Shown piece by piece: positions 28,066-64,000 of a stretch of 64,000 nt of DNA. The translations under genes were made by a program, and so were the position numbers. The notes beneath the pieces are model-generated. The model was not told where the DNA came from, did no database searches, and saw nothing but the letters and a program-made list of their open reading frames with translations. Source of the DNA: Portulaca oleracea (Eukaryota > Streptophyta > Magnoliopsida > Caryophyllales > Portulacaceae); assembly GCA_029582165.1 (NCBI GenBank), contig CM055883.1:15842501-15906500 (forward strand). The letters are read 5' to 3'. Within the stretch, counting starts at the first letter, position 1. Each line of letters begins with the position of its first letter.

Positions 28066-28368
28066 ATCTGTAGGACCCGGAAAAATTCCCGTTCAGGAAA
28101 ATGTTTCCTCGGATGCGCTACATTTGTTATCAGGAGCCGACTAAGGTTTCTTAATCCTTAAATAAGGATATTTTTATTTTTCGAAATTCATTTCGGGGTG
28201 ATGAAACTTTATTTATTTACAAACTCGTTTTTTATTATTTAAATTATCCGTAATTACACAAATTAATTTAACAATAATTTAGTCCCGACCCAATTAATAA
28301 ATCCAGGCCCAAAAGAGAACCAGTGGACCACTGGTTTCCTCGGCCCAAAAAGAAATTGGGTTGAAACT

Positions 28369-28392
28369 GATAAAACACGCCTAGGTTTTATC
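28369..28392 (-). promoter_or_regulatory. U5 hairpin motif in the D1 LTR
   Basis: GATAAAAC / GTTTTATC arms (8 bp, perfect) around ACGCCTAG, which on the element strand presents TAGGCG. The arms differ from those of the C copy at 55290-55313 (GTCAAAACC / GGTTTTGAC), yet both pair fully. Confidence 0.55.
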
Positions 28393-29181
28393 ATTTTCTG
28401 GCCCATTTCTCTCGGGACCCTCCTTGAATAAATATTAGACATGAATTATATTATTTTCTTAAATTAATTTTGTGTAAGAAATCGAATATTTTAAACAATT
28501 AAACGCATTTGTAAAATTGTTTAAAGAGTCGTCATTCGATTTAAACAAATCGACAAACCATAAAAAAAGAAAGACTCCGGTCTACGAACCCGATTTCTAG
28601 ATTCGGGGGTAAGGTTACGAATTTGAGAGTTATAAGAACTCTCGGATCCGCCTGTTTATAAAAACAGACTCTACTAAAATCAACATTGAAAAGAAAGAGA
28701 ACGTTGTGAAGTTTGATTAATTTCGCGGAATTATTATTCAAATCATGCAATATAAAAACAATGCGGCTTTATTTTATAAAATATGTACAAGCACGGAATT
28801 AAATAAAGGATTACATGATTAAACGCAATAATTTTAATAAAAGAACCGAACATTGCTTGAGATGTAGCGACAACGGATTTGATCCCTTGAGTTGCCCCTT
28901 GACTTGAAACCCGGCTAAGATGACGTGGGTGGTGTAATAAAAAGAATGGTATGAGGATGGTTACGAAGTGGTGGTGAATATGGTATGGATGATAAAAATA
29001 AGCATAATATGGATGTGGTGTAGGGAGGTGATTTTGTGATAGAAGGATGATGGAAGTATAGTATGGAGGTGATAGGAGGATAGAATAATGATAGGTGATA
29101 GAGAGAATTTGAGAGAGTGAAAGAGTAGAATAAGTGTATTAGATGATGATTGTTGGTGAAATGAAGGTAGAATGGAGGGGG

Positions 29182-29189
29182 TATTTATA
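29182..29189 (-). promoter_or_regulatory. TATA box of the D1 LTR
   Basis: TATAAATA on the minus strand, in the same relation to the U3 hairpins as TATAAAAA at 54466-54473 in element C. Duplicated at 34215-34222. Confidence 0.55.
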
Positions 29190-29256
29190 GGTGAGGGAGT
29201 ATACGTTTTGGAGGGAAAAGGTGGGGGACATACCCTAAAAATCACGTCATCAGAGA

Positions 29257-29458
29257 CCAAAGCCTAGGCGGGTTTTGGGGTGGTCAAGGGAAGTCAAATC
29301 ACGTGGGCAAAAATCAGGGGATTGCATGCATGCAGAAATTTTTGGCGCAATAATCATCAAAGCCTACGCGGGCATTGATAATATTTTCACACGGATCGCT
29401 GAAATGGCACCAAACGACGTCACGTGCTACCTCCCTTCAAACCCTAGGCGGGGTTTGA
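29257..29458 (-). promoter_or_regulatory. U3 hairpin cluster in the D1 LTR
   Basis: Three inverted repeats: 29257-29278 (CCAAAGCC / GGTTTTGG, one G-T), 29356-29379 (ATCAAAGCC / GGCATTGAT, one mismatch) and 29437-29458 (TCAAACCC / GGGTTTGA, perfect). All have TAGGCG or TACGCG loops on the plus strand, i.e. CGCCTA on the element strand. A decayed fourth is near 29475. Confidence 0.55.
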
Positions 29459-29650
29459 TGTTTCCTGGGCCGGATCAAACCCTAGGCGGGTATTATTTGC
29501 TCTGGGCCGGGGCGCGCGACATGCCTGCTTTGTGTGTGGGCTGATAAATAAAATTAAAACCCCTATGGGTTTTATTAATTATCCACGACCTGTTTTATTT
29601 TTGTTGGCCTCGATTTGTTGATCTTTTGGGCCCGTTGACCCGTTTCACTC

Positions 29651-31735
29651 ATCTTTCACAGAGTCAATCAATCTCAAGCCTGATTTATACTTTCACAGTG
29701 TTGAATTAGTGAATGTGGAATGGACACTTATTTCAAAGTTTGTAAGGGTCGTATACCATACTACAAGAAATAGACAATAGCTTACCAAGACATTTTCCTT
29801 CAGTCCAGTATAAGTATAATCCAGTGCGGAAAAACCTCATGCAACTAAACTGCCAGTATCTTTTAGAACTAGAAAATTTTAGCATATAACAAATGCATTT
29901 GACATAGCAGTCATTGGACTAACAACCTATAATGAAGTACCAACTACAACTCAGCAGAGAAATCAAGGACAGAGCATGTTTAATCAACTAACTAAATAGG
30001 ACATGAGTCAAATTGTTCGACATGGATTATAGACAAACCTAAACAAGACCCCTGTGGTGACAATCTTTAGATTGCCCATGATCTGATATGTAAATGTATC
30101 CACGTAGGTGAGGTTAGCAAACAGTCCTAAAATAATATTCTCGTAAATAAGTATTTTAATTAAACGTGCCTGAATGTATAGAAAGAAACTACCATTCATA
30201 TTATGATAATGAAATATTATTGGGATATATCCCATTTGATACAATCTATTATTCTCTTGTTTCTCTGGTATAAAGAGATCCTTTGTCTTTATTTGAAATG
30301 CCTTTATGTTGCTGTAAATCATAAATATTACTCAAAAGCAATGGTATGATACTCTTGGCTTAATGTTAGGCCAAATGAAAACAATTTACACAGCAAGACC
30401 CCAAATAAATTTCTAGTGAAGAGACCAGCAACCAGGTATGATCCCACTATAATTCAAAAGATCTTATTATAGAGGACATTGAGTCCAATAATTTTAATCA
30501 TCGACACCCAAGAGTCCCATACACTTTGGTTCTTACATCCTAGATTAATAAACCACCAAGAGGAAGTCTTTCCTCGGAATGGAAGCAAAGATAGTTGATC
30601 ATTCTATTTCAAATTTTCAATGACATATAATTCAAGCTAAAGGTTATCAAGTACACCAAAGTTGCATTCTTCATGCAATAATTTCAATGGCAGCCCAAAC
30701 AAAACAGCTATATCGACTATCAAACAAGCATATTAAGCAATCATGTTAAAACTTGTGTAGGAGGCTGTCTTTTAGAGAAATAATAGTTTGTGACATTTTC
30801 ATCAATCTAAATCCAATAATCCCAATCCTCATAGTGTCGCGGAAATTGAAATTAAGGACAGGCTAGAAAGATGATAACTGCAAGCTGGGATACCTGAGTT
30901 TCTACACTAGTCATCTTTGCACTGGCATCCACTGCGGTACCCCTTGAGGCTCCTGCCTGAGCTGCAAAGAAGCTAGCTGAAATTGAAATTAAGGATAAGC
31001 TAGAAAGATTGTGCAAGAAAATACTACATAGAAAACATTGTATGGAGCAATAAGAACCCCAAGTTGAAAGATTCCACAATATACCTTGTCCTACAGGCTA
31101 CGACCTAGTTTTTCTTTCCCTAACTTCCTCTATAGTCCATGAGGAAGCGAATTTAAATGTTAAATTAGTTCAAAATCTAGTTGAAACACATCGAATTCCA
31201 GATACTTCTATCTAAAATGAACGCAATGAGTTCAAAGATGGCAATGACGGCAAATTCGAGACAGAGAAAGTTAGTAGCTACCGATAATGCAAACAACTCT
31301 TTCATTAGACATTCAATTACTTCAAAATCCAGATAAAACACACCGAATTCCAGATAATTCAAACTGAATTCAACGCAACGAGTTGAAAACTTGCAATGAC
31401 GACAAAATCGAGAGATAGAGAAAGTAGCTACCGAGAATGCAAACAACGCCAGCACTGTGAAGCTCCGACGACCATGGCGAAGAAGAACGAACATCAACGG
31501 AGTGAACCTCGACGGCGCTACGGCGAAGGAGCTCTAGAGAACCATAGTTGGTGTGGATGAGAGAGAAACTTAGACATAAGGCAAAGGGAGAGAGAGAGAG
31601 AATCGTACATAATGAGAGGAAATATTAGCTTTGGGCTTAGAGTATCTAACTTATTTGGGCCAGCTCAACATGAATAAAAGCCACTGGCATTTATGTACAA
31701 ATGTTGTTGTAGGGTGTTTGTTAGTGGACTTTAGC
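29651..31735. other. 2-kb segment with captured gene fragments, copy 1
   Basis: No retrotransposon protein is readable. It contains an exon-like piece of a CMP-sialic-acid-transporter-type gene (30039-30126, minus), another exon-like minus-strand piece near 30891-30965 with flanking AG and GT, and an ATG-containing piece near 31440-31497. A CACTA-terminus-like string (ACTACAAGAAATAG) occurs at about 29760, and subterminal-like repeats (TAGCAGCATTTGTAT, GCCACTAAGCAAATGTTG) near 31733-31770. It may be a gene-capturing DNA transposon, but no clean inverted termini or target duplication were found. Confidence 0.45.
30039..30126 (-). pseudogene. Exon fragment of a nucleotide-sugar (CMP-sialic acid type) transporter, copy 1
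   Basis: The minus strand reads FANLTYVDTFTYQIMGNLK followed by IVTTGVLFR, close to my memory of the conserved segment of plant CMP-sialic acid transporter 1-type Golgi/ER nucleotide-sugar antiporters (FATLTYVDTSTYQIMGNLK). It is bounded by an acceptor-like TTTTAG and a donor-like GTTTGT, so an exon with intron edges was carried. Other exons of that gene were not found. It is a fragment with no likely function. Confidence 0.7.
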
Positions 31736-31890
31736 AGCATTTGTATATATGCCACTAAGCAAATGTTGTTAAAGGCCCGTTATGTTGTGGTGAAATACCT
31801 CATTTGGTGCATACGATCATTACTCCTCACCATCATCTCACAGTCTTCATCACATATTCTCCAAAACCAACCAAAAACCTTTCAATTCAC

Positions 31891-33328
31891 ATGGCTTTTG
31901 AGAAGAAACTTGCTACTTGGATGAGCACCTTTTCCAAGGAAGAGAAGAAAGAGCTCGGAAGATACAAGTTAACAAGCTTGTTGAGTCTTCGACAAGTGAC
32001 AGTCAATAACGACTTTCTCCGTGCGGCGGAGACATTTTGGGATTCGAAGATGCATGTTTTCTGATTCTCTTGGGAAGAGTTATGTCCGCGGAGGAATGGT
32101 CCTCAATCCTAGGGACAAATCACTTTGCTCGACCGACGTCGCCTCCTACACCAACTGACATCCCCAAACAATACAAGCAGCTCTTATGTCTTCCTTCTCG
32201 AGTCATCGGAAGTGCAATATTTTGCGAAAAGGTACACTTCCAAACCATAGTTGAATAATTTCTACATCCCGATACCTTGGAATACTGTCCCGTGATACGA
32301 GTGCGAGCACTCGTATTATGTCTCCTCGGCGAGTTTTGCTTCTACCATGGCGGCAAAAGAACTGGACCGACAAATTTGATCCAAATCGTCGAAGACATGT
32401 CACGAGGCTACAACCCCATACCTCTAATGTTAGCGGAAACCATGATGGGTTTCGATGATCCGAATCAAGAACATGATTTTCAAGGAAGCCCCTTGCTACT
32501 TCAGGTATTTCATTCTTCCTTCTCTATTCTGCTGACTTTCTACCACTATTGCCTGTAAAACCCGCGCGAGTTTTGCCCCTTTTCTTTTTTTTTTAGTTTG
32601 GGATAATTGGCATGCAATCTAACCCTGGCTAACTTTTGGACAGGTCTGGTTAATGGAACACTTGGGTCTCATCGAAGAACCCCGGACTTCATCGGCGATG
32701 GCAAACTATTGTCACAGAAAGAGGAAGTACACCAACCTTCACTCGGTAACAGAATGGATCGCATCTTAAAGGAGCCTCGTGATATCACATTTATGAGTAT
32801 GTGACCCATGATTTCCGCAATGCCTATGTGTGTCTCGCGCGGCTTGACCACATGACCTTTTATTTTCCGGCGCGAGTGAAACGACAAATGGATCGCAGGC
32901 AAGATATTCCCGAGCTACTATGTGAAACTCCCGAACAATTGAAGCTTCGAAGCTCAGTGATAGTGTCGTGGCTAAAATACTACGAAAGAAGGCCAACTCT
33001 TCAAGCCCCTCTGAAGATACACGTGTCTCATATCGCCGATGCTGATTACCATGGATGGTTAATTGCGGGTATTAAATCTCGCCGTGCTGGGGAAGCAAGA
33101 TGAAGGCAAGCATCTGCAAAGGAAAGATTGGGTCCCCGTGCATCGGTAAAGGACCGCCTTAGCGCAAGAGACTCGGTGAAAGATAGACTATGTCCTAGAG
33201 TAGAGACAACAAAACCAAGTTGGCGGGTCTATAAGCCCAAAGACAAAGAGAAAGCCCTCATTGGACCTAGAGACATGGAGATTGACCATGAGACTACTAG
33301 AGAAGTAGAGAATGTGAAGCAAGATTAG
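31891..33328 (+). pseudogene. Antisense spliced ORF of plant-mobile-domain/DUF7745 type, copy 1
   Basis: Runs opposite to the Tat element, between its integrase and LTR. ATG at 31891 opens MAFEKKLATWMSTFSKEEKK. A nonsense codon and frameshift fall near 32060, then RVRALVLCLLGEFCFYHG, LIQIVEDMSRGYNPIPLML and GSPLLLQ. A 139-bp intron is predicted at 32505-32643 (CAG|GTATTT ... GGACAG|GTC), after which the frame reads VWLMEHLGLIEEP. Later motifs: HDFRNAYVCLARLDHMTFYF, RQDIPELL, and a basic C-terminus with SVKDRL repeats. A 22-bp deletion near 32790 and a stop at 33101 damage it further. Family name from memory; function unknown. Confidence 0.6.
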
Positions 33329-33339
33329 AAGATAGATGG

Positions 33340-33565
33340 GAGAGAAGGAATTGAAACTGTCTTGCCAAAACAATCTTTTACTAAATTAAGCCTTTTTTTG
33401 AATTTTCTTATTTACAAGCAATGTACTTACATTATCAATTAATAACGAAGAAATATTGTTCACAATTATTGTATTCTTGCAAACTTTATTTTTTCTTATA
33501 TACATGAGAATTTATTGAATGTATCCCAAGTGTCTGAAAATTGGTTTTCTAGCTGCTTGGTTATA
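33340..33565 (+). other. AT-rich intergenic stretch, copy 1
   Basis: AT-rich sequence between the converging antisense ORF and the integrase, repeated at 38292-38517. It probably holds both 3' ends; no terminator motif can be claimed. Confidence 0.4.
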
Positions 33566-34013
33566 TTAGGCATAATATCGCTGGAGCTGATCCAAATTCG
33601 TTGGCAGAATTACATCTTCTTCATCCATAGTAACAAGCCGGGCGGCTCCTCCTAGCAAAATATCCTTAATCATATAAGGACCCTTCCAATTAGGTGCAAA
33701 TTTTCCCCTTGGGTCTTGTATAGGTGCCCTCATCACCTTAAGCACCAAATCGCCTAGTTGAAGTGAACGGCTTTTCACGTTCTTATTGAAAGCACGAGTG
33801 ATCCTGCTTTGGTACACTTGCACTTTATGCAATGCCTTCGATCACCTTTCATCCATCAACATTAACTCCTCAAACCTTTCTCTAGCCCATTCTGCTTCTG
33901 ACAATTGACTTTCGGCCAATATCCGTAACGAAGGGATTGCTACTTCAATTGGTAGGACTACTTCCATCCCATATACCAAAGAATATGGTGTTGCACTTGT
34001 AGCTATTCGTATA
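33566..34013 (-). pseudogene. Tat integrase C-terminus, copy 1 (truncated by duplication join)
   Basis: Minus-strand frame 33566-33832 reads VQVYQSRITRAFNK, GDLVLKVMRAPIQDPRGK and GKFAPNWKGPYMI, the GPY/F-type integrase tail of Tat elements; upstream sequence to 34013 encodes EWARERFEELM-type residues. It is cut at 34013, where LTR sequence of copy 2 begins. A stop near 33840 separates the two parts. Confidence 0.75.
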
Positions 34014-34680
34014 TGATATGGATGATAAAAATAAGTATAATATGGATGTGGTGTAGGGAGGTGATTTTGTGATAGAAGGATGATGAAAGTATAGTATGGA
34101 GGTGATAGGAGGATAGAATAATGATAGGTGATGGAGAGAATTTGAGAGAGTGGAAGAGTAGAATAAGTGTATTACATGATGATTGTTGGTGAAATGAAGG
34201 TGGAATGGAGGGGGTATTTATAGGTGAGGGAGTATACGTTTTGGAGGGAAAAGGTGGGGGACATACCCCAAAAATCACGTCATCAGAGACCAAAGCCTAG
34301 GCGGGTTTTGGGGTGGTCAAGGGAAGTCAAGTCACGTGGGCAAAAATCAGAGGATTGCATGCATGCAGAAACTTTTGGCGCCATAATCATCAAAGCCTAG
34401 GCGGGCTTTACGATATTTTCACACGCATCGCTGAAATGGCACCAAACAACGTCGCGTGCTACCTCCCTTCAAACCCTAGGCGGGGTTTGATGTTTTTTGG
34501 GCCGGATCAAACCCTAGAAGGGTTTTATTTTCTCTAGGCCGGGGCGCGCGACAGGCCCGCTTTCTGTGTGGGCTGATGAATAAAGTTAAAACCCCTATGG
34601 GTTTTATTAATTATCCACGACCTGTTTTATTTTTGTTGGCATCGGTTTTTTGATCTTTTGGGCCCGTTGACCCGTTTCAC
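34014..34680 (-). repeat. Partial Tat LTR (U3 part), copy 2
   Basis: Matches 28981-29650. It contains TATAAATA (minus) at 34215-34222 and hairpins at about 34289-34312, 34392-34409 (AAAGCC / GGCTTT) and 34469-34490 (TCAAACCC / GGGTTTGA). The U5 part and PBS are missing because the duplication starts inside the LTR. Confidence 0.75.
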
Positions 34681-36660
34681 TCATCTTTCACAGAGTCAAT
34701 CAATCTCAAGCCTGATTTATACTTTCACAGTGTTGAATTAGTGAATGTGGAATGGACACTTATTTCAAAGTTTGTAAGGGTTGTCTACCATACTACAAGA
34801 AATAGACAATAGCTTACCAAGACATTTTCCTTCAGTCCAGTATAAGTATAATCCAGTGCGGAAAAACCTCATGCAACTAAACTACCAGTATCTTTTAGAA
34901 CTAGAAAATTTTAGCATATAACAAATGCATTTGACATAGCAGTCATTGGACTAACAACCTATAATGAAGTACCAACTACAACTCAGCAGAGAAATCAAGG
35001 ACAGAGCATGTTTAATCAACTAACTAAATAGGACATGAGTCAAATTGTTCGACATAGATTATAGACAAACCTAAACAAGACCCCTGTGGTGACAATCTTT
35101 AGATTGCCCATGATCTGATATGTAAATGTATCCACGTAGGTGAGGTTAGCAAACAATCCTAAAATAATATTCTCGTAAATAAGTATTTTAATTAAACGTG
35201 CCAGAATGTATAGAAAGAAACTACCATTCATATTATGATAATGAAATATTATTGGGATATATCCCATTTGATACAATCTATTATTCTCTTGTTTCTCTGG
35301 TATAAAGAGATCCTTTGTCTTTATTTGAAATGCCTTTATGTTGCTGTAAATCATAAATATTACTCAAAAGCAATGGTATGATACTCTTGGCTTAATGTTA
35401 GGCCAAATGAAAACAATTTACACAGCAAGACCCCAAATAAATTTCTAGTGAAGAGACCAGCAACCAGGTATGATCCCACAATAATTCAAAAGATCTTATT
35501 ACAGAGGACATTGAGTCCAATAATTTTAATCATCGACACCCAAGAGTCCCATACACTTTGGTTCTTACATCCTAGATTAAGAAACCACCAAGAGGCAGTC
35601 TTTCCTCGGAATGGAAGTAGAGATAGTTGATTATTCTATTTCAAATTTTCAATGACGTATAATTCAAGCTAAAGGTTATCAAGTACACCAAAGTTGCATT
35701 CTTCATGCAATATTTTCAATGGCAGCCCAAACAAAACAGCTATATCGACTATCAAACAAGCATATTAAGCAATCATGTTAAAACTTGTGTAGGAGGCTCT
35801 CTTTTAGAGAAATAACAGTTTGTGACATTTTCTTCAATCTAAATCCAATCATCTCAATCCTCATAGTGTCGCGAAAATTAAAATTAAGGACATGCTAGAA
35901 AGATGATAACTGCAAGCTGGGATACCTGAGTTTCTACACTAGTCATCTTTGCACTTGCATCCACTGCGGTAACCCTTGAGGCTCCTGCCTAAGCTGCAAA
36001 GAAGCTAGCTGAAATTGTAATTAAGGACAGGCTTGAAAGATAGTGCAAGAAAATGCTACATAGAAAACATTGTATTAAGCAATAAGAACCCCAAGTTCAA
36101 AGATTCCACAGTATACCTTGTCCTACAGGCAACGACCTAGTTTTTCTTTCCCTAACTTCCTCTATAGTCCATAAGGAAGCGAATTTAAATGTTAAATTAA
36201 TTCAAAATCTAGTTGAAACACATCGAATTCCAGATACTTCTAGCTAAAATAAACGCAACGAGTTGAAAGATGGTAATGACGGAAAAATCGAGACAGAGAA
36301 TGTTAGTAGCTACCGATAATGCAAACAACTCTGTCATTAGACATTCAGTTACTTCAAAATCCAGATGAAACACACCGAATTCCAGATAATTCAAACTGAA
36401 TTGAACGCAACGAGTTCAAAACTTGCAATGACGACAAAATCGAGAGATAGAGAAAGTAGCTACCGAGAATGCAAACAACGCCAGCACTGTGAAGCTCCGA
36501 CGACAATGGCGAAGAAGAACGAACATCGACGGAGCGAACCTCGACGGCGCTACGGTGAAGGAGCTCCAGAGCACCATGGTTGGGGTGGATGAGAGAGAAA
36601 CTTAGACCGGAGGCAGAGGGAGAGAGAGAGAAAATCGTGAGGAGTAATGATTGTATTGTT
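34681..36660. other. 2-kb segment with captured gene fragments, copy 2
   Basis: Copy of 29651-31735 with small differences, including loss of about 100 bp near 36650 relative to copy 1 (31620-31730). Contains the same transporter exon and the same exon-like pieces. Confidence 0.45.
35071..35158 (-). pseudogene. Exon fragment of a nucleotide-sugar transporter, copy 2
   Basis: Same 88-nt exon as 30039-30126 with one nucleotide change near its 5' end (ACAGTC versus ACAATC on the plus strand). The TYVDTFTYQIMGNLK reading is unchanged. Confidence 0.7.
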
Positions 36661-36819
36661 TAGCAGCATTTGTATACATGCCACTAAGCAAATGTTGTTA
36701 AAGGCCCGTTATGTTGTGGTGAAATACCTCATTTGGTGCATACGATCATTACTCCTTACCATCATCTCAAAGTCTTCATCACATATTCTCCAAAAACAAC
36801 CAAAAACCTTTCAATTCAC

Positions 36820-38280
36820 ATGGCTTTTAAGAAGAAACTTGCTACTTGGATGAGCACCTTTTCCAAGGAAGAGAAGAAAGAGCTCGGAAGATACAAGTTA
36901 ACAAGCTTGTTGAGTCTTCGACAAGTGAGAGTCAATCACAACTTTCTCCGTGCGGCGGAGACATTTTGGGATCCGAAGATGCATGTCTTCTGATTCTCTT
37001 GGGAAAAGTTATGTCCGCGAAGGAATGGTCCTCAATCCTAGGGACAAATCACTTTGCTCGACCGACTTCGCCTCCAACGCCAACTGACATCCCCAAACAA
37101 TACAAGCAGCTCTTAAGTCTTCCTTCTCAAGTCATCGAAAGTGCAATATTTAGCGAAAAGGTACACTTCCAAACCATAGTTGAATATTTTCTATCTCCCG
37201 ATACCCTTGAATACGGTCCCGTGATACGAGTGCGAGCACTCGTATTATGTCTCCTTGGCGAGTTTTGCTTCTACCATGGCGACAAAAGAACCGAACCGAC
37301 GAATTTGATCCAAATCGTCGAAGACATGTCGCGAGGCTACAACCCCATACCTCTAATGTTAGCGGAAACCATGATGGGTTTCGATGATCTGAATCCAGAA
37401 CATGATTTTAAAGGAAGCCCTCTGCTACTTCAAGTATTTCATTCTTCCTTCTCTATTCTGCTGACTTTCCACCACTATTGCCTGTAAAACCCGCGAGACT
37501 TTTGCCCCTTTTCTTTTTTTTTTTAGTTTGGGATAATTGGCATGCAATCTAACCCTGACAAACTTTTGGAGAGGTCTGGTTAATGGAACACTTGGGTCTC
37601 ATCGAAGTACCCTGGACTTCATCGGCGATGGCAAACTATTGTCAGAGAAAGAGGAAGTACACCAACCTTCACTCGGTAACGGAATGGATCGCATCTTAAA
37701 GGAGCCTCGTGATATCACATGGTGGATCGAATGGTGGCACATTTATGAGTATGTGACCCATGATTTCCGCAATGCCTATGTGTGTCTCGCGCGGCTTGAC
37801 CACATGACCTTTTATTTTCCGGCGCGAGTGAAACGACAAATGGATCGCAGGCAAGATATTCCCGAGCTACTATGTGAAACTCCCGAACAATTGAAGCTTC
37901 GAAGCTCAGTGATAGTGTCGTGGCTAAAATACTACGAAAGAAGGCCAATTCTTCAAGCCCCTCTGAAGATACACGTGTCTCATATCGCCGATGCTGATTA
38001 CCATGGATGGTTAATTGCGGGTATTAAATCTCGCCGTGCTGGGGAAGCAAGATGAAGGCAAGCATCTGCAAAGGAAAGATTGGGTCCCCCTTCGTCGGTA
38101 AAGGACCGCCTTGGCGCAAGAGACTCGGTGAAAGATACACTATGTCCTAGAGTGGAGACAACAAAACCAAGTTGGCGGGTCTATAAGCCCAAAGACAAAG
38201 AGAAAGCCCTCATTGGACCTAGAGACATGGAGATTGACCATGAGACTACTAGAGAAGTAGAGAATGTGAAGCAAGATTAG
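36820..38280 (+). pseudogene. Antisense spliced ORF of plant-mobile-domain/DUF7745 type, copy 2
   Basis: Better preserved than copy 1. ATG at 36820 (MAFKKKLATWMSTFSKEEKK), frameshift near 36990, then open to the predicted intron at 37434-37573 (CAA|GTATTT ... GGAGAG|GTC). Exon 2 keeps ITWWIEWWHIYEYVTHDFRN, missing from copy 1, and shows a one-base loss near 37697. The stop at 38053 and the downstream basic tail to 38280 match copy 1. It opposes the integrase at 38518-39659, so transcripts would converge. An extra antisense ORF between integrase and 3' LTR is reported for some Tat-lineage elements (general knowledge, not checked). Confidence 0.62.
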
Positions 38281-38517
38281 AAGATAGATGGGAGAGAAGG
38301 AATTGAAACTGTCTTGCCAAAACAATCTTTTACTAAATTAAGCCTTTTTTTGAATTTTCTTATTTACAAGCAATGTACTTACATTATCAATTAATAAAGA
38401 AGAAATATTGTTCACAATTATTGTATTCTTACAAACTTTATTTTTTCTTATATACATGAGAATTTATTGAATGTATCCCAAGTGTCTGAAAATTGGTTTT
38501 CTAGCTGCTTGGTTATA

Positions 38518-39659
38518 TTAGGCATAATATCGCTGGAGCTGATCCAAATTCGTTGGCAGAATTACATCTTCTTCATCCATAGTAACAAGCCGGGCGGCTC
38601 CTCCTGGCAAAATAACCTTAATCATATAAGGACCCTTCCAATTAGGTGCAAATTTTCCCCTTGGGTCTTGTATAGGTGCCCTCATCACCTTAAGCACCAA
38701 ATCGCCTACTTGAACTGAACGGCTTTTCACCTTCTTATTGAAAGTACGAATGATCCTGCTTTGGTACACTTGCACTTTATGCAATGCCTTCGATCACCTT
38801 TCATCCATCAACATTAACTCCTCAAACCTTTCTCTAGCCCATTCTGCTTCTGACAATTGACTTTCGGCCAATATCCGTAACGAAGGGATTGCTACTTCAA
38901 TTGGTAGGACTACTTCCATCCCATATACCAAAGAATATGGTGTTGCACTTGTAGCAATTCGTATAGAGGTTCGATATCCCCACAAGGAAAATGCCAGTTT
39001 ATCATGCCAATCTTTGTAAGTGAAAAAATTTTTCTTGATGATTCCACCCACTATTTTATTGGCTGCTTCTACAGCTCCATTAGTTTGAGGTCGGTATGGC
39101 GAAGACCGGTGATGTGAATTTTGTAAGTGGCGAGTAAAGGTTGTACTTCCTTCCGAAAATGACTTCCATTATCACTGATGATCTCATGAGGCACTCCATA
39201 TCGACATATGATGTTTTGGAGAATGAACTTGGCCACTTGCTTGGATGTGAGTTTGGCGAAAGAAGCCGCTTCTACCCACTTAGTGAAGTAACTGATGGCG
39301 ACCAAGATGTACTCATGCCCTCCTATTCCAATTGGGTGTATCTTGCCAATGATGTCAATAGCCAATATCGAGAAAGCCAACGGAGACATTAAAGTAGTTA
39401 GATATGATGGGGGTTGATGTTGTAGGTTAGCATACTATTGGGAGTTGTGGCACTTCCAAACGAACTCTAAGCATTCGGCCTCCATAGTAGACCAATAGTA
39501 ACCAGCTCTTTGAATCTTCTTTACCAGGATGCGTCCATTCATGTGGGGACCACACTCTCCTCCATGTGCAGTAGCCATGACCTCCTTGGCGCTCTTAGCA
39601 TTGATGCACAACAAATTGATGCCTGTAGGTGATTTCTTGTAAAGTCTATCTTGGATCAA
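38518..39659 (-). pseudogene. Tat integrase (D2), main copy
   Basis: Three frames. 39435-39659: zinc-binding region with HGGECGPHMNG and CLEFVWKCHNSQ (the last Cys of CxxC is Ser). 39069-39389: core with AIDIIGKI (first Asp), YFTKWVEAASFAKLTSKQVA and EIISDNGSHF (second Asp); after a frameshift the catalytic Glu codon survives in GAVEAANK. 38794-39051: YGMEVVLPIEVAIPS. 38518-38784: C-terminal GPY-type domain. Frameshifts near 39100 and 39050 and a stop near 38790 inactivate it. Its upstream partner (RNase H) lies beyond element E at 49495. Confidence 0.82.
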
Positions 39660-41133: not shown

Positions 41134-43229
41134 ATGGCAATTCTTGATTTTCTTGATTTACCTCAATATATTTTCTTTATCTTCTTTATTATTACTTTTG
41201 ATTACACTTGGTATTCTTGTTTTTGTCGTTTTTCAGGTTTACATAAAAAGATTTCTTATTCGGATTTGATCCTAATACTGGACGAACCCTACGAGAAAGA
41301 AGTAAAAAGCAAAGAACTGGAGAAAGAACAAGAACAAGAAGAACAAGCTAGGTGCGAAGTGGAAGAGATGACCGATCAACTACGAACAGGGGGCCAATAT
41401 ATGACACTCAATAACCCCTAGTTCACAATCGCAGTCCTCGATATTGCAGCTGATGACTTCGAACTACGACAATCGTTAATTGACTTAGTGTCCAAGGAGC
41501 CTTTCCATGGACATCCAAGCGAAGATCCAAACCGCCACCTACGCCTCTTCCACCAAGCCTGTGATACCTTCAAGGCCAACAACGTCTCGGAAGATGCAAT
41601 CAAGCTGAGGCTCTTCCCATTCTCTTTAGAAGGTAAAGCATGGGAGTGGCTTGACTCGCTCCCTCCCAACTAAATCACCACGTTCAGCGAACTCACCAGC
41701 ACGTTCTTGGCATGATATTTTCTTCCTAGCAAGCTTACTAGCTTAAGGAACCGGATTTTGACATTCACCCAAGAGCCTGACGAGCCGCTCTATGAAGTTT
41801 GGGATAGATTCAAGGACCTTCTCCGCCAATGTGCTCAACACGGATTCGAACCTTGGGTTCCAATCCAGTCCTTCTTTGACGGAATAAACACGTTGACAAG
41901 AGAAAGCATTCTCTCAGCAGCTGGAGGCGATATCATGAACAAGAGTATACCTGAGATCACGAACTTGATCGAAAATTTAGTGAACAATTCACGTCAATGG
42001 TCGGAACCCCGCCATAGTGCGGAAGGTAAGCAAAATATTGATGCGATTTCTTTATTAACTGCTAAACTGGATACTTTGGTGAAAAGAATAGACCGTCAGG
42101 ACTCACCTGTATCCTCACTTTCACCACGTAACTCGACCAAGAAAGAGATTTCAGCATGTCCTACGAAAATAGCATGTAACGACCAAACCCAACAAGTCCA
42201 CTCTGTTGACCGAAATCTGAACTTAGAATCTATAGTGAAAAGTCTTGTGTCAATCCAACAAGAACAAAAAAAGACTATTAAGAATCTTTTGGTAAAGATA
42301 GAGGTCTTGACCCATCTAAGTAAAAATCTAGAGACTAAATTAATTGACCAAGACACCTCCCCTAACTCTTCTACTGCGAATACAATGGAATACTGTAATG
42401 CTTTGACTCTTAGGAGCGGAAAACAATTAGATGAACCCAAAAGAAGCCAACCTGAGAGTAGAGAGCCTGAACCAGAAAAAGAACCTACAGTAGATGTTGC
42501 TATCCACGGGGATATGATAGAACAAGGTGACCCACCGGTAACTAACCAAAGAGTCTATATACAGCCCATATCGTTTCTTCAAAGGCTAGTCAAAGCTTGT
42601 CTAGCCAAAGCAAAACTCGATGATACGACGAAGTGTAAGGTGAGTGAACCTATTGGGTTAGATACTAGGTACGAAGATGATTTTTATGAGTCACTTGATT
42701 TTGTTCATGAGGAATCTAGCGATGAAATTAGTAGTGAGGTTAATCTTCCAAACGAGAATGTTGCTTACCTTGTACCCTTTGAATCCGATGATTTATTTGA
42801 TTATTTTCTCGATGATCCTATTCCTTGTCTACCACCTTCGATTCCACCTGAAATCCTTGAGAAACCCATACCTGATCAAAAGACCTTAGATGATCATGTT
42901 AACATAGGATATGAGGTTAATTTTTGTGAAACCTATGATATTTTTAATAAGTTGTCCTTAGGTAAGTCTAGAAGTCATGAGCCCTACCTTGATCCTTATC
43001 ATATATACCTAGAGGACCATCCCAGAAAAATTCCGTGGACCAAATACTTGGAATCTTTTATTTTTCTAGTGAATTTGATTTATTACTGAGAACTTTACTA
43101 ACGTTTAATTTTATGAGTTTTCAGTTAATTTCTAACGTGTCAGCTTGCAAACCGCATGGAGGAGAGTTTGACATGCTACTAAGGGCCTTGACGTCATCCG
43201 GAACGGAGACCCCGATCCTAACTAACTAA
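41134..43229 (+). pseudogene. gag: Athila-type gag-like ORF1 (element E)
   Basis: A single frame from ATG 41134 to about 43060, then a one-base deletion near 43055 moves the end (to the stop at 43227) into another frame. Stops at 41419, 41671 and near 41713 correspond to sense codons in A. Motifs: LFHQACDTFKANNVSEDAIK, LRLFPFSLEGKAWEWLDSLP, GFEPWVPIQSFFDGI, MNKSIPEITNLIENLV. After PPVTNQRVYIQPI comes the acidic tail (DDLFDYFLDDPIPCLPPSI). The first ~35 residues from 41134 are hydrophobic, and a TTTTTCAG acceptor-like site near 41235 offers another reading. A start at the later ATG (about 41368) fits Athila gag better. Confidence 0.8.
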
Positions 43230-53800: not shown

Positions 53801-54192
53801 TATAGACACCGGATTTTGTACTGGGACAAGTGTACAAATCAAGCATAACAAGAAAAGAGGCTAGCATGAAAGAAAATCTAAAGGGCGTTCCTCAATCAAA
53901 AGCTATGGGGCCAACCCACAACAAAAATCTTTCATTTTCCACCCTTTCCACATACATATGCCAACCATTTCAAATCCCATTTTTCCACAAGTCTTGTTGG
54001 CCTCTTTCTTTTGATGAGAGTAAAGTACACATCATAAGCTTTCCAATGCCTTTTGAATTGCCTTAATCGGAGTCCGGATTAAAGAGTTATGGTCGTTCGA
54101 AGTTGCACTTAAGCAGTTTTAAAACTCAAGCGGGTTTTAACATTTTCCAGGACCAGAAATCTTGCCCAGCAAAGCGTTCCCCGGTCCGTAGA

Positions 54193-54397
54193 GCTCAAAA
54201 CCCGCCTAGGTTTTGAGCGGAATAGCGGATGTTGTCGTTTGGTGCCATGTCAGCGATCCGCGTAATAATCAAATCAAAACCCGCCTAGGTTTTGAGTAAT
54301 CTGGCGCCAAAATCTGCAAGCATGCACGTAATCCCCTAATTTTTTCCCCACGTGTTTGACCTTGCGCTTGACCTCCCAAAACACGCCTAGGTTTTGG
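54193..54397 (+). promoter_or_regulatory. U3 hairpin cluster with CGCCTA loops (element C)
   Basis: 54193-54218: arms GCTCAAAACC / GGTTTTGAGC (10 bp, perfect), loop CGCCTA. 54274-54295: TCAAAACC / GGTTTTGA, loop CGCCTA. 54376-54397: CCAAAAC / GTTTTGG around ACGCCTAG. All lie 70-280 bp upstream of the TATA box. Confidence 0.6.
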
Positions 54398-54465
54398 TCT
54401 TTGGATGACATGATTTGTGGGATATGATCTCTCCATTTTCCCTCCAAATCTCTCACTCCCTCACC

Positions 54466-54473
54466 TATAAAAA
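54466..54473 (+). promoter_or_regulatory. TATA box of element C
   Basis: TATAAAAA in CTCACCTATAAAAACCGCC, the same context (CTCACCTATAAATACCCCC) as in D1. Confidence 0.6.
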
Positions 54474-55289
54474 CCGCCTCCATTTCACCTTCACTCCCAC
54501 CTACTACTATCATCAAAATACCCTTACTCTACTCTCATTTTCATCATCTATTCTCATCAACTACCTCCATACTAGCTATACTCCAATTCTCTCAAAACTT
54601 CATCATCCATATTCATCTCTAATCCCCTCACAATCACATTCATCACATCCATATGATCACCTATATACCACTCTTTACTCACATCACTTTATCCATGCTC
54701 CAAGTCAAGGCCAAGTCAAGAGATCAAGTCCATCAATTCTACCACCTTAAGCAAGGTTTGATTTCATTATTCGTTTTGTTAAAATTAATCATGTAATTTG
54801 TTCTTTGATTCCATTACTTGTACATATTTTGTAAAGCAAAAACCATGTTTTATATTGGATGTTTTGAATAATAACTTCGCGAAATTAATTAAACTTCTTC
54901 CCGCTCTCTTTCTTTCAATGTCGATTTTAGTAGAGTCTGTTTTATAACAGGCGGATTCGAGAGTTCTTTTTACTCTCGAATTCGTAACCTTACCCCCGAA
55001 TCTAGAAATCAGGTTCGTAGATCGGAGTCTTTCATTTCTTATTCTATGGTTTGTCGGTTTCCTTAAATCGGCTAGGAACTCTTTTATAATTTATAAATTC
55101 GTTTAATTATTTAAAATATATGTTTCTGCATAAAATAATTTAAATAAATAATTTAATTCATTTCTTTCGCTAATTTGATGTTTGGGCCCGAGGGAAATAT
55201 GCCAGAAATCAATATAACCCAGACGGGTTTTATTAATTTTAACCCATCTACTTCTGGCCCGAAGATGCAAGCGGCACAACCCAAGAGAT

Positions 55290-55313
55290 GTCAAAACCTA
55301 GGCGGGTTTTGAC
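55290..55313 (+). promoter_or_regulatory. U5 hairpin with TAGGCG loop (element C)
   Basis: Arms GTCAAAACC / GGTTTTGAC (9 bp, perfect) around TAGGCG, the exact complement of the U3 loop CGCCTA. D1 has an equivalent at 28369-28392. Confidence 0.6.
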
Positions 55314-55564
55314 AGTCTCTGGTTGCCTGTTTGTTCCTTGTTGGGCCTGAACTTAGTGATTGGGCCGGGATTATGCAATTTCGGATAATTTAAATAATAA
55401 AAAACGGGTTTGTAAATAAATAAAGTTTCATCACCCAAAAACAAAATTCGAAAATTAAAAACATCCTTATGTAAGGATTAAGCAACCTTAGTCGGCTCTC
55501 GATCATTTAAGTAGCGCATCCGAAACAATTTCCTAAACGGAGGTTTTTTCCGAGACCTACAGAT

Positions 55565-55582
55565 TGGCGACTCCACTGGGGA
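55565..55582 (+). other. Primer-binding site of element C (tRNA-Arg type)
   Basis: TGGCGACTCCACTGGGGA, three bases after the LTR end; matches the D1 site except one base. Confidence 0.75.
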
Positions 55583-56780
55583 CTTAAACTAAAAAAGAAG
55601 GTAAAACTTGAAAAAATCGAATTGATTTGAAAGTGTAAAAAAGAGAAGTTTATTTATTTCGTGACTTTATTATTCTTTTAGGCATCCTTTGCATACCGGG
55701 CCACTAATCGGGTCTTTTGACACGTTAGCACAAAGGTGACGGTTTAAGATAACTAGGTTTTCCCTTGAAAGCGGGAGGCCACTACCATAGGGATGCACTC
55801 CACATCACTAAGCATTACCTCTTCCCGTGTTACACTCAAAGGGCTTCCTTGAAGTTCTTTGAGCCATACCTCACACATCTTACTTTTGGGTATGATGAAC
55901 CGGGGTGAGAACATGCGGTAGGCCATGTAACCCAACCATAGAAATCAATGAATTTAGAGCCTTGGTTTAAGTATCCCTTCATGTGTATGCTATGTGATAT
56001 GTGTACCCCTTCCCCTTTTCTTTTCTTTTTGTAAAGAGTCAACCTTAGTTTGCAGGTTCTTGTTCAGGTCCATATAAAATTCATTGAGTTGAGAAAACGA
56101 TTATTCATTAATTAATATAATTAACTCAAAAGCATTATGGTTAGCCCAAGTGGAAGGGCCTATTTATGTTTGAAAGTTGATTATCTTAATCAACAAATAC
56201 AAATTGACTCACCTTTGATGATATTATATGGCCCTTTACGAAATTCTCTTAACAAAGGGCCCAAAAAAGAATTAATTAAAAAGTCCAACAAAGTTAATGG
56301 ATAGCGTCTTAGACTGCATAATAGTCACTAGGCTTCAGTAAATTAATTCATCCATTTAATTAATAAATCCATCATATTTATGGTCAACCCGTTGTTTGGC
56401 CCAACCATATTGGATTTGTCAACTAAGCCTGTAAATTAATTAGGACTCGCTTATTGTTGACTTTATCCAGTCCTTTACAATACCCATTTTCCTCGAGTAA
56501 AAAAATAGAGTATAAAAAGGTTAAAGAAAAATAGGTCGTCAGTCTTGTCGAGCATTATTCCAGTCCGCATAATAGCCAATATAGTTTGAGCTGTCTGAGT
56601 TGTTGGGCCAAGTTACGGATTCTCCATAAAACAGTCGGCCTGTGGATTGGGCCCATCCGAATTGAGAAACACTGACTGAAGCTTGTCAACTCAAGATCCG
56701 CTCGCTATGTATGAGTTTATTCGGCCCTTTATGATGTTCTGTTTTTAGGTCCATATAGAGTTAGGTCATGCACTTCTACA
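55583..56780 (+). other. 5' untranslated region of element C
   Basis: Non-coding, homologous (inverted) to 26811-28047. No gag follows. Confidence 0.7.
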
Positions 56781-58640: not shown

Positions 58641-58676
58641 GAAGTCATTTTCCTTACAGATGAAGATACGTAGGGA

Positions 58677-59060
58677 ATGTATTTTGACAGAGCTTCCAAT
58701 CAAATGGATTGTGGAATAAGAGTACTACTAATCTCTCCAGAAGGGATACATGTTCCTGTATCTGTGAAGCTGGATTTTCACGTCACAAACAATGCTGCCG
58801 AATATGAAGCCTACATCAAGGGTTTACAAGCTGCTTTGGCCTCACGTATACACCATATAAAGGTCTTTGGAGATTCTAGCCTTATCATCAATCAGGCTAA
58901 GAACACGTGGAAAGTTCATAATGAATGCCTTATGGCATACCAATAGAAGCTTTTGGGACTTGCTGATCAATTTGAGAAGATTAGCTTCCAATACCTTTCT
59001 AGGGATCACAATGAATTGCTTGATGCTCTAGCCATATTCAATGATATCGTTCCCATTAGG
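58677..59060 (+). pseudogene. Archaeal-type RNase H remnant (element C)
   Basis: YFDRASNQMDCGIRVLLI (Asp present), NNAAEYEAYIKGLQAAL (the catalytic Glu, mutated to Lys in D2, is intact here) and KVFGDSSLIIN (Asp present). A TAG at 58945 ends the frame (CATACCAATAG, D2 has CATAAGCT-type coding); FEKISFQYLSRDHNEL-like sequence follows. Diagnostic of the Tat lineage. Confidence 0.75.
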
Positions 59061-62620: not shown

Positions 62621-63017
62621 GGTAATTTTTCTATATCTCCATCCTCTGTTCAAAATGATCTCACATTTTGCTTTGGTTTCTGTGCAGGGAGTCATCACAG
62701 ACACCAGGTCGTCGCTAAAAGGCGCAACCATCATCCAATTGCCGCATAAAAAGTCGCCAGCTCTTCGGTCACCGACAAAGGGACCACCACCATCCAGCTA
62801 TCACATAAAAGGTCGCTGGCACCATCATCACCCAGGGCCATCGGCAGAGTTTGGATGCAATCCCAATCCTGAGCCACCGACATCGCGCCGATGAAGTCTC
62901 AATCTTCGAGCCATCCTCATCGTGCCCGATGAAGTCTCGACCACCAAAGCCATCAGCATCGCGTCTGGTGAAGTCCTTCGGCATTGAAAATGCTAATAAT
63001 CATCAACACCGACACCG

Positions 63018-63296
63018 AGAAAGACTGGAACTGACACCAAGAAAGATTGGAATCGACACCTGGAAAGACTAGAGCCGACACCGGGAAAGACTAGAGTCGA
63101 CACCGGGAAAAACTGAAATCGACACCGGGAAAGACTGGAGCCGACACTGGGAAAGACTGGAACTGACACCGGGAAAGACTAGAGCCGACACCAGGAAAGA
63201 TTGGAACCGACACCGAAAAAGACTGGAATAGACACTGGGAAAGACTGGAGTCGACACCGGGAAAGATCGGAACCGAAGCCGAGAAAGACTGGAAAA
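63018..63296 (+). repeat. 22-bp tandem repeat
   Basis: About 12-13 units of AAAGACTGGAGTCGACACCGG plus G with scattered changes. Long ORFs on either strand here are a by-product of this repeat. Confidence 0.88.
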
Positions 63297-63697
63297 CTCC
63301 ATGAACCATCGGCATCATGTCTGATAACAAGTAAGGCGTCATTCTCTCCTGAGATCAACAACGACACATTAACAGTCAGGTCGAGCATCATTCTTGCTCG
63401 AGATCATCCCCAAAGAGGCGCATGCTGCCCGCAACTGCGACACAGGACGATTCTTTCAAGTGTCAACCCACACCTTCAAGTAAGGCGTCATTCTCGCCCG
63501 AGATCAACAACGACTCATCGACAGTCAGGTAGAGCATCATTCTTACTCGAGATCATCTCAAAGGAGGCGCATGTCGCCGGCAATCGCGATGCAGAACTCA
63601 GCTTCCAAGCGTCACCCCAGGCTTTGCAATCCAAAGTCACATCCTCAAACTACTTTGAACTTCGTCCTATTCGGACTCGATCAGAGTCAGGGCTCTT

Positions 63698-64000
63698 TGT
63701 AGACACCAGATTTGTAGCAGGACAAATGTACAAATCAAGCATAACAAGAAAAAAGGCTAGCATGAAAGAAAATCCAAAGGGCCTTCCTCAATCAAAAGCT
63801 ATCGGGCCAACCCACCACAAAAAGCCTTCATTTTCCACCCTTTCCACATACATATGCCCACCGTTTCAAATCCCATTTTTTCCACAAGTCTCGCTGGCCC
63901 CATTTCTTTTGATGAGAGTAAAGTACACATCATAAGCTTTCCAACGCCTTTTAAATTGCCTCAATCGGAGTCTGAATGAGAGAGTTATGGTCGTTCGAAG
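63698..64000 (+). repeat. 3' LTR of element C (start only)
   Basis: TGTAGACACCAGATTTG..., colinear with 53801 onward (shared ATCAAGCATAACAAGAAAA and GCTAGCATGAAAGAAAATC). Runs off the window before the hairpin cluster. No clear polypurine tract is seen directly before it. Confidence 0.85.

Follow-up and report, generated by a model that had tools for sequence, protein, structure and literature searches.

What does a short dyad-symmetric motif do when an LTR carries it in one orientation in U3 and as its reverse complement further downstream? This question is raised by retrotransposon copies in a 64,000-nt stretch of Portulaca oleracea DNA (hereafter the window). The initial annotation had described inverted repeats with a CGCCTA core in U3 and a TAGGCG core in U5 of element C and of D1, an element on the other strand. 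It had read differing but still pairing arms as compensatory change under selection on structure, and proposed that the complementary loops kiss, joining the ends of genomic RNA.

The start of the element C 5' LTR was inferred from that of the 3' LTR (TGTAGACACC, at 63698), a repeat cut by the window edge, and its 5' counterpart is TATAGACACC. The LTR and its parts are as follows.

53801..55561, + strand: 5' LTR of element C (53803-54102 self-aligns with 63700-64000 at 91%; ends with CCTACA ahead of the PBS)
54193..54218, + strand: U3 site A, CGCCTA-core dyad with 10 bp arms and no mismatch
54274..54295, + strand: U3 site B, CGCCTA-core dyad with 8 bp perfect arms
54376..54397, + strand: U3 site C, CGCCTA-core dyad with an A.G mismatch at pair 1 in the element C copy
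54466..54473, + strand: TATA box TATAAAAA, identified by sequence, 3' of all three U3 dyads
55178..55266, + strand: hairpin E, a rod in R/U5, with a decayed apical dyad at 55211-55234 and loop CAGACG at 55220-55225; homolog of D1 28368-28393
55267..55334, + strand: hairpin F, a rod in R/U5, with a 10 bp perfect apical dyad at 55289-55314 and loop TAGGCG at 55299-55304
55415..55424, + strand: AATAAATAAA, conserved candidate poly(A) signal, from sequence and alignment
55565..55583, + strand: PBS TGGCGACTCCACTGGGGAC, beginning 3 nt past the LTR end

The TAGGCG inverted repeat and the U3 stems at 54193 and 54274 were thus as the initial annotation had them, but the third U3 stem is imperfect. Of the 40 first-set pieces (element C and L017-L055, see below), 35 have the TATA box CACCTATAAA. 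Because the conserved AATAAA at 55415-55424 lies downstream of them, the "U5" dyads may belong to R; hairpins E and F may then sit at both RNA ends, if this candidate signal is used. The PBS is presumably complementary to tRNA-Arg. Another leader hairpin, with arms ATTCGAGAGT/ACTCTCGAAT, lies at 54952-54984 and is kept in part in D1, and an array of 22-bp tandem repeats (62965-63338) precedes the 3' LTR. Rfam models at gathering thresholds gave no match in the LTRs. Matches to snoR71 at 2060-2166 and 41740-41846 (45 bits, cut-off 40) overlap retrotransposon gag stretches and are perhaps spurious.

We retain the name Tat from the initial annotation as a putative label; features of Tat/Ogre/Retand elements, a clade of Ty3/gypsy, are an extra RNase H of archaeal type in the polyprotein, an additional ORF with TRP28 or PMD (in Retand antisense and lying between pol and the 3' LTR) and a tRNA-complementary PBS. 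An RVT_3 match (58674-58943, E 1.4e-10) falls inside the span of element C. ORFs antisense to the D elements (36831-38055) gave a PMD match with an E value of 0.0075, under the curated cut-off, and their domain matches included no TRP28; the one homolog found matched DUF7745 just over the cut-off and PMD under it. The corresponding features of the D elements are listed below.

28368..28393, - strand: hairpin E of D1, loop core TAGGCG on the element strand
29257..29278, - strand: U3 site C of D1, with an A.C mismatch at pair 3
29357..29378, - strand: U3 site B of D1, core reading CGCGTA
29437..29458, - strand: U3 site A of D1, arms AAACCC/GGGTTT
29475..29496, - strand: extra U3 dyad P1 of D1, with a mismatch at pair 3 when the loop is 6 nt, but able to pair after a register shift that leaves a 5-nt loop
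29555..29574, - strand: extra dyad P0 of D1, loop ATAG
36831..38055, + strand: ORFs antisense to the D elements, weakly plant-mobile-domain-like

The polarity reported for C and D1 was borne out by D1 and by the aligned sites in the genome copies analysed below. The statement that the U3 arms of D1 still pair is right for site A but not for site C (29257). The two "U5" dyads that had been compared as counterparts are not homologous, the D1 dyad at 28368-28393 corresponding to 55211-55234 of element C and not to 55289, so that comparing their arms is not comparing like with like. In the LTR alignment, D1 is without the approximately 51 nt that contain hairpin F in element C; a short perfect hairpin of D1 (AACCAGTG-GTC-CACTGGTT, 28318-28336) adjoins the junction where hairpin F is absent. 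Self-alignment revealed a 5-kb tandem duplication (28978-34010 and 34011-38965, 96% identical) that joins LTR parts to the pol-3' region of the D elements; hence, the second D LTR copy is without R/U5, and D2, as the second unit, is no independent element. The dyad at 34392-34409, offered as an additional arm example, lies inside this duplicate of the D1 stretch and represents no independent element either.

Counting stems of 8 bp or more with loops of 3-8 nt, the window has 24 hairpins, several of them repeat copies of one another; 20 dinucleotide shuffles gave a mean of 6.8 and a maximum of 11. CGCCTA occurs at 25 sites, partly repeat copies, against 9.4 expected, and all arm-bearing sites fall within the C or D LTRs. 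The exact CGCCTAGG core was absent from 60 kb around the window, and among the matches listed by a literature text search for it, none was titled on LTRs. A telobox reading (AAACCCTA) was discarded: the sequence is found in D-type arms yet is missing from C-type sites. Hits from scans of viral contigs (PBS plus dyad, 3 loci) and genome contigs (PBS, 5 loci) were set aside as prokaryotic or phage chance matches, judged by the sequence of three of them and by G+C.

Two sequence searches of the same 1.13-Gb Portulaca oleracea assembly supplied further LTR copies. The first gave 41 rows (the window copy, 39 further places, all of which were used, and one fragment of a listed place), and the second gave 40 places including D1 and D2, of whose 38 others 20 were used. 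As each search returned the best 40 of more than 2600 first-look candidates, the copy sample is small and ranked by similarity. Seven copies with no usable R/U5 match were left out there (L022, L032, L033, L048, L051, L054 and D2), the D-type copies L062, L071 and L074 had no R/U5 match, and L025, which exits the LTR after hairpin E, was excluded from R/U5 counts; L050, which is without site A, was omitted from U3 trees. The final alignments comprise 61 rows for U3 (including C, D1 and D2) and 51 for R/U5 (including C and D1). Among 183 aligned U3 sites of the 61 copies, 131 have an exact CGCCTA and none TAGGCG; among 102 aligned R/U5 sites of the 51 copies, 68 have TAGGCG and none CGCCTA, the remainder being changed or gapped. 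Sites at the same position are homologous by descent, so the lack of inverted cores indicates stable maintenance rather than many independent events. Away from the aligned sites, L040 carries an extra TAGGCG-oriented dyad 5' of site A (around position 363), the sole one so placed in the 40 first-set pieces, and L022, which is rearranged, carries downstream CGCCTA dyads resembling D-type U3 sites.

In R/U5 the evidence for structure is strong. Folded jointly, 28 copies form two adjacent rods at -89.1 kcal/mol, compared with a mean of -36.0 kcal/mol (sd 4.5, best -50.1) for 60 column-shuffled R/U5 alignments; the fold of a two-row rod alignment was uninformative. Single-copy folding z scores are -6.0 for C 55170-55340 and -4.6 for D1 28340-28420, the minimum-energy fold of D1 in a 171-nt context being different from hairpin E. 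The outer arms switch in matched sets, in hairpin E between AAATTAAT/ATTAATTT, AAAGTGAT/ATCACTTT and AAAATGAT/ATCATTTT, and in hairpin F between GTC/GAC, GCT/AGC, GTT/AAC and CTCGTC/GACGAG. In 34 copies, the 59 pairs gave 26 double changes, whereas random majority-paired column pairs gave 0.105 each. The 18-mers at the tips reach a conservation of 0.946 and 0.956 in these copies, compared with 0.864 for the background and 0.826/0.628 for the outer arms.

A covariation test of the stems, as suggested in the initial annotation, was carried out on 51 copies, using 51 pairs recovered on both strands and a null of 100 independent-column simulations. The trees were computed without the hairpin columns, and recombination between copies may blur them. 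On internal branches, 24 matched double changes occurred at 17 arm pairs (null mean 2.0, maximum 7) and 20 at 23 basal pairs (null mean 1.9, maximum 6), that is, 44 against about 4 under the tree-aware null, in counts where the stem pairs were picked from the very alignment used for counting and where parsimony fuses successive single changes on the same branch. On terminal branches, matched changes numbered 4 in the arms (null mean 2.0, maximum 7) and 5 in basal pairs (null mean 2.3, maximum 8). Apical pairs showed no matched change on either class of branch (null means 0.02 internal and 0.06 terminal); they are hardly variable and have no say for or against pairing. Total branch length is 2.14 terminal against 0.94 internal, and A.C or other breaks at arm and basal pairs number 88 against 23. 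Matched changes at the null level together with frequent breaks on terminal branches are as expected if selection acts while an element is active and decay follows insertion; the contrast between branch classes is a simple way to split the two. Cumulatively, these patterns support selection on the R/U5 hairpin, at pairs other than those on which selection on structure had originally been argued.

The folded strand is likely the sense RNA. With 43 copies the sense fold is the better one (-105.9 versus -92.1 antisense), with 28 copies the two are equal (-89.1 and -90.0), and pair 3 of hairpin F is G.T, a G-U wobble in the sense strand, in 11 of 44 copies. Single changes on internal branches gave no clear excess of G.U over A.C (6:8 in arms, 10:6 in basal pairs). 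Hairpin F, about 80 nt past hairpin E, is present in 28 of the 34 first-set R/U5 copies. D1 and several other copies lack it or have it truncated, and in D1, L034 and L046 it is absent at one common place. In L018, a relative, AGTGGCCCA direct repeats flank the stretch missing elsewhere, which is consistent with a jump across the hairpin.

U3 behaves differently. CAAAACCCGCCTAGGTTTTG prevails at all three sites of C-type copies, and the outer arms there (pairs 7-10) drift without compensation. In the U3 counts, Watson-Crick cells at pairs 7-10 are 0.69, 0.74 and 0.43, with no double change. Among the inner pairs (1-6), two matched changes separate C-type from D-type copies, A-T to C-G at pair 3 of site A and A-T to G-C at pair 3 of site B (null mean 0.03 each, 60 simulations); about 0.08 would be expected over the 18 inner pairs, and both changes belong to a single branch and a single position. 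The compensatory arm change originally claimed, all of it at pair 3, is present to this extent, but the same pair 3 is A.C, a one-sided change, at site C in nearly all 22 D-type rows. In the extra D-type site P1 it is A.G (6-nt-loop register); eight E sites have T.T or C.T there, and sixteen F sites have G.T, C.T or T.T. Because a register shift may restore pairing in P1 and in the C.T states, A.C and T.T alone count as clear mismatches. Pair 3 therefore looks tolerant of change and sometimes complementary, and with C-G and G-C joined by A.C and A.G in U3 and by T.T, C.T and G.T in R/U5, we abandoned U3 pair-3 compensation as main evidence; compensatory change inferred from two copies can be thin evidence. 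Conservation of the U3 18-mers (0.964-0.969, surroundings 0.928) is a modest gain, and since 21% of background 18-bp windows reach at least 0.95, this measure does not establish a special conservation of U3. Folds of the U3 stretches are slightly more stable than those of shuffled sequences (z -2.3 and -1.6). Taken as a whole, AAANCC-CGCCTA-GGNTTT in U3 reads as a sequence motif that shows a hint of structure.

The reading that we favour, with a probability of roughly 0.55, is that one LTR module is used twice, as the tips of twin RNA hairpins in R/U5 and as Sirevirus-like promoter DNA dyads in U3. The LTR of this putative Tat-type family would carry the 18-nt quasi-palindrome and employ it in two ways. 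Copies in U3, 5' of the TATA box, would be DNA cis-elements whose dyad is bound by a host or an element-encoded factor. In R/U5 the reverse complement would cap two long neighbouring hairpins within the 5' leader of the genomic RNA, and the twin hairpins would recur at the RNA 3' end provided that the downstream AATAAA is used. These hairpins probably function at the RNA level, and their likeliest role is that of a packaging or dimerisation element which Gag recognises and whose tip is sequence-specific; control of reverse transcription is an alternative leader role for the rods. The use of one sequence in both U3 and R/U5 may reflect a common ligand or U3:R/U5 pairing. The modest conservation of U3 and the shifted-register caveat take strength from the U3 half of this reading.

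Would the two halves instead pair with each other, as first proposed? In that case a kissing contact of the R/U5 loop or loops, near the 5' end of genomic RNA, with the U3 loops, near the 3' end, would circularise the RNA or join two RNAs. We regard this as possible but unlikely on the sequence evidence. At least one exact U3/R-U5 loop match exists in 44 of 50 copies, with 6 lacking one, and no core is inverted. Model energies favour both a loop-loop contact (-7.9 kcal/mol) and full pairing, which for three combinations of U3 and R/U5 sites is 12.6-17.8 kcal/mol better than two hairpins; the R/U5 tip is also conserved in sequence while its outer stem varies. However, loop complementarity comes with any reverse-complement copy and is the same fact as polarity. 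Two copies from different places, L044 and L047, have CAGTGG in both the E and F loops while their U3 sites are at or near CGCCTA, and L037 has CAGGCG in both R/U5 loops and no exact U3 match; if L044 and L047 represent a subfamily that is active, end pairing is dispensable. Scattered loop changes leave L023, L027 and L055 without an exact match. Among the compared copies we found none whose U3 and R/U5 loops had changed in concert, so that kissing is no more than permitted. Stems of the U3 outer arms are not maintained by compensation, and if hairpins E and F lie in R, TAGGCG loops would be at the 3' end itself. The sharing of CAGTGG by both hairpins of L044 and L047 suggests an exchange between hairpins or a common constraint. 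A combined form, in which the ends are joined by pairing of the U3 18-mer with its reverse complement on the twin covarying leader hairpins, with redundant partners on both sides, and the U3 sequence doubles as a promoter element, is doubtful. If true, one module would tie transcription control to genome circularisation or dimerisation.

Similarly doubtful is the proposal that all sites are DNA-level dyads for a single protein and the hairpins a by-product. It would account for the recurrence of the 18-mer in U3 and R/U5 even where the stem is broken, and the U3 position matches that of the repeated motifs of Sireviruses (PMC2829016). Antisense ORFs of such elements have been proposed as DNA-binding (PMC11963269), and D has a weakly PMD-like antisense ORF. 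It leaves without explanation, however, the 44 matched changes counted in outer and basal stems of R/U5.

An improbable source of these changes is mutation itself, template switching in quasi-palindromes during replication or reverse transcription matching the stems without selection. Such switching is able to build and repair hairpins and to flip loops (PMC8794818), and the direct double changes that it would yield resemble those counted. Terminal branches, along which inserted copies accumulate mutations as DNA, nevertheless stay within the null for matched changes, no core is inverted in 285 aligned sites, and the outer arms of U3 go unmended. Switching by reverse transcriptase while elements are active could still be compatible with this pattern. 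It is very improbable that the hairpins serve chiefly to trigger host small RNAs and that their conservation is incidental: palindrome clusters of Sireviruses do draw small RNAs (Bousios 2016, as described in PMC10760457), but this role would predict selection to lose the stems, not to keep them.

A covarying leader structure recovered from genomic copies is a concrete candidate for packaging, dimerisation or the control of reverse transcription, and we found none described for a plant Ty3/gypsy element in the open-licence literature. In retroviral genomic RNA, the R-U5 and DIS hairpins of the 5' leader have conserved loops. The twin hairpins resemble the DIS as leader hairpins with conserved loops and differ in that their loop is not self-complementary and their function is putative. 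With template-switch hairpins (PMC8794818) they share matched stem changes and loop-reversed copies, but here the matched excess is confined to internal branches and aligned sites show no inverted core. The Ty1 pairings CYC5:CYC3 and SL1a:SL3a likewise involve complementary sequences at the ends of or within a retrotransposon RNA, and leader hairpins; those pairings rest on experiments (PMC5454406), whereas here there is sequence complementarity, with structural selection in U3 at most a hint. Sireviruses are Ty1/copia elements, and the accessible part of PMC2829016 describes in them no inverted-polarity copies on covarying R/U5 hairpins. Their palindromic repeats, suggested there to be DNA elements, lie in U3 5' of the TATA box in 3-14 copies per 3' LTR, and 12 of the 13 listed motifs have a CGG-CCG core rather than CGCCTA flanked by CC/GG (PMC2829016, same part). 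The likeness to the U3 dyads studied here is that of a short dyad motif in several U3 copies 5' of the TATA box (three in C-type LTRs; four with the core, and P0, in D-type LTRs) that are highly alike within an element.
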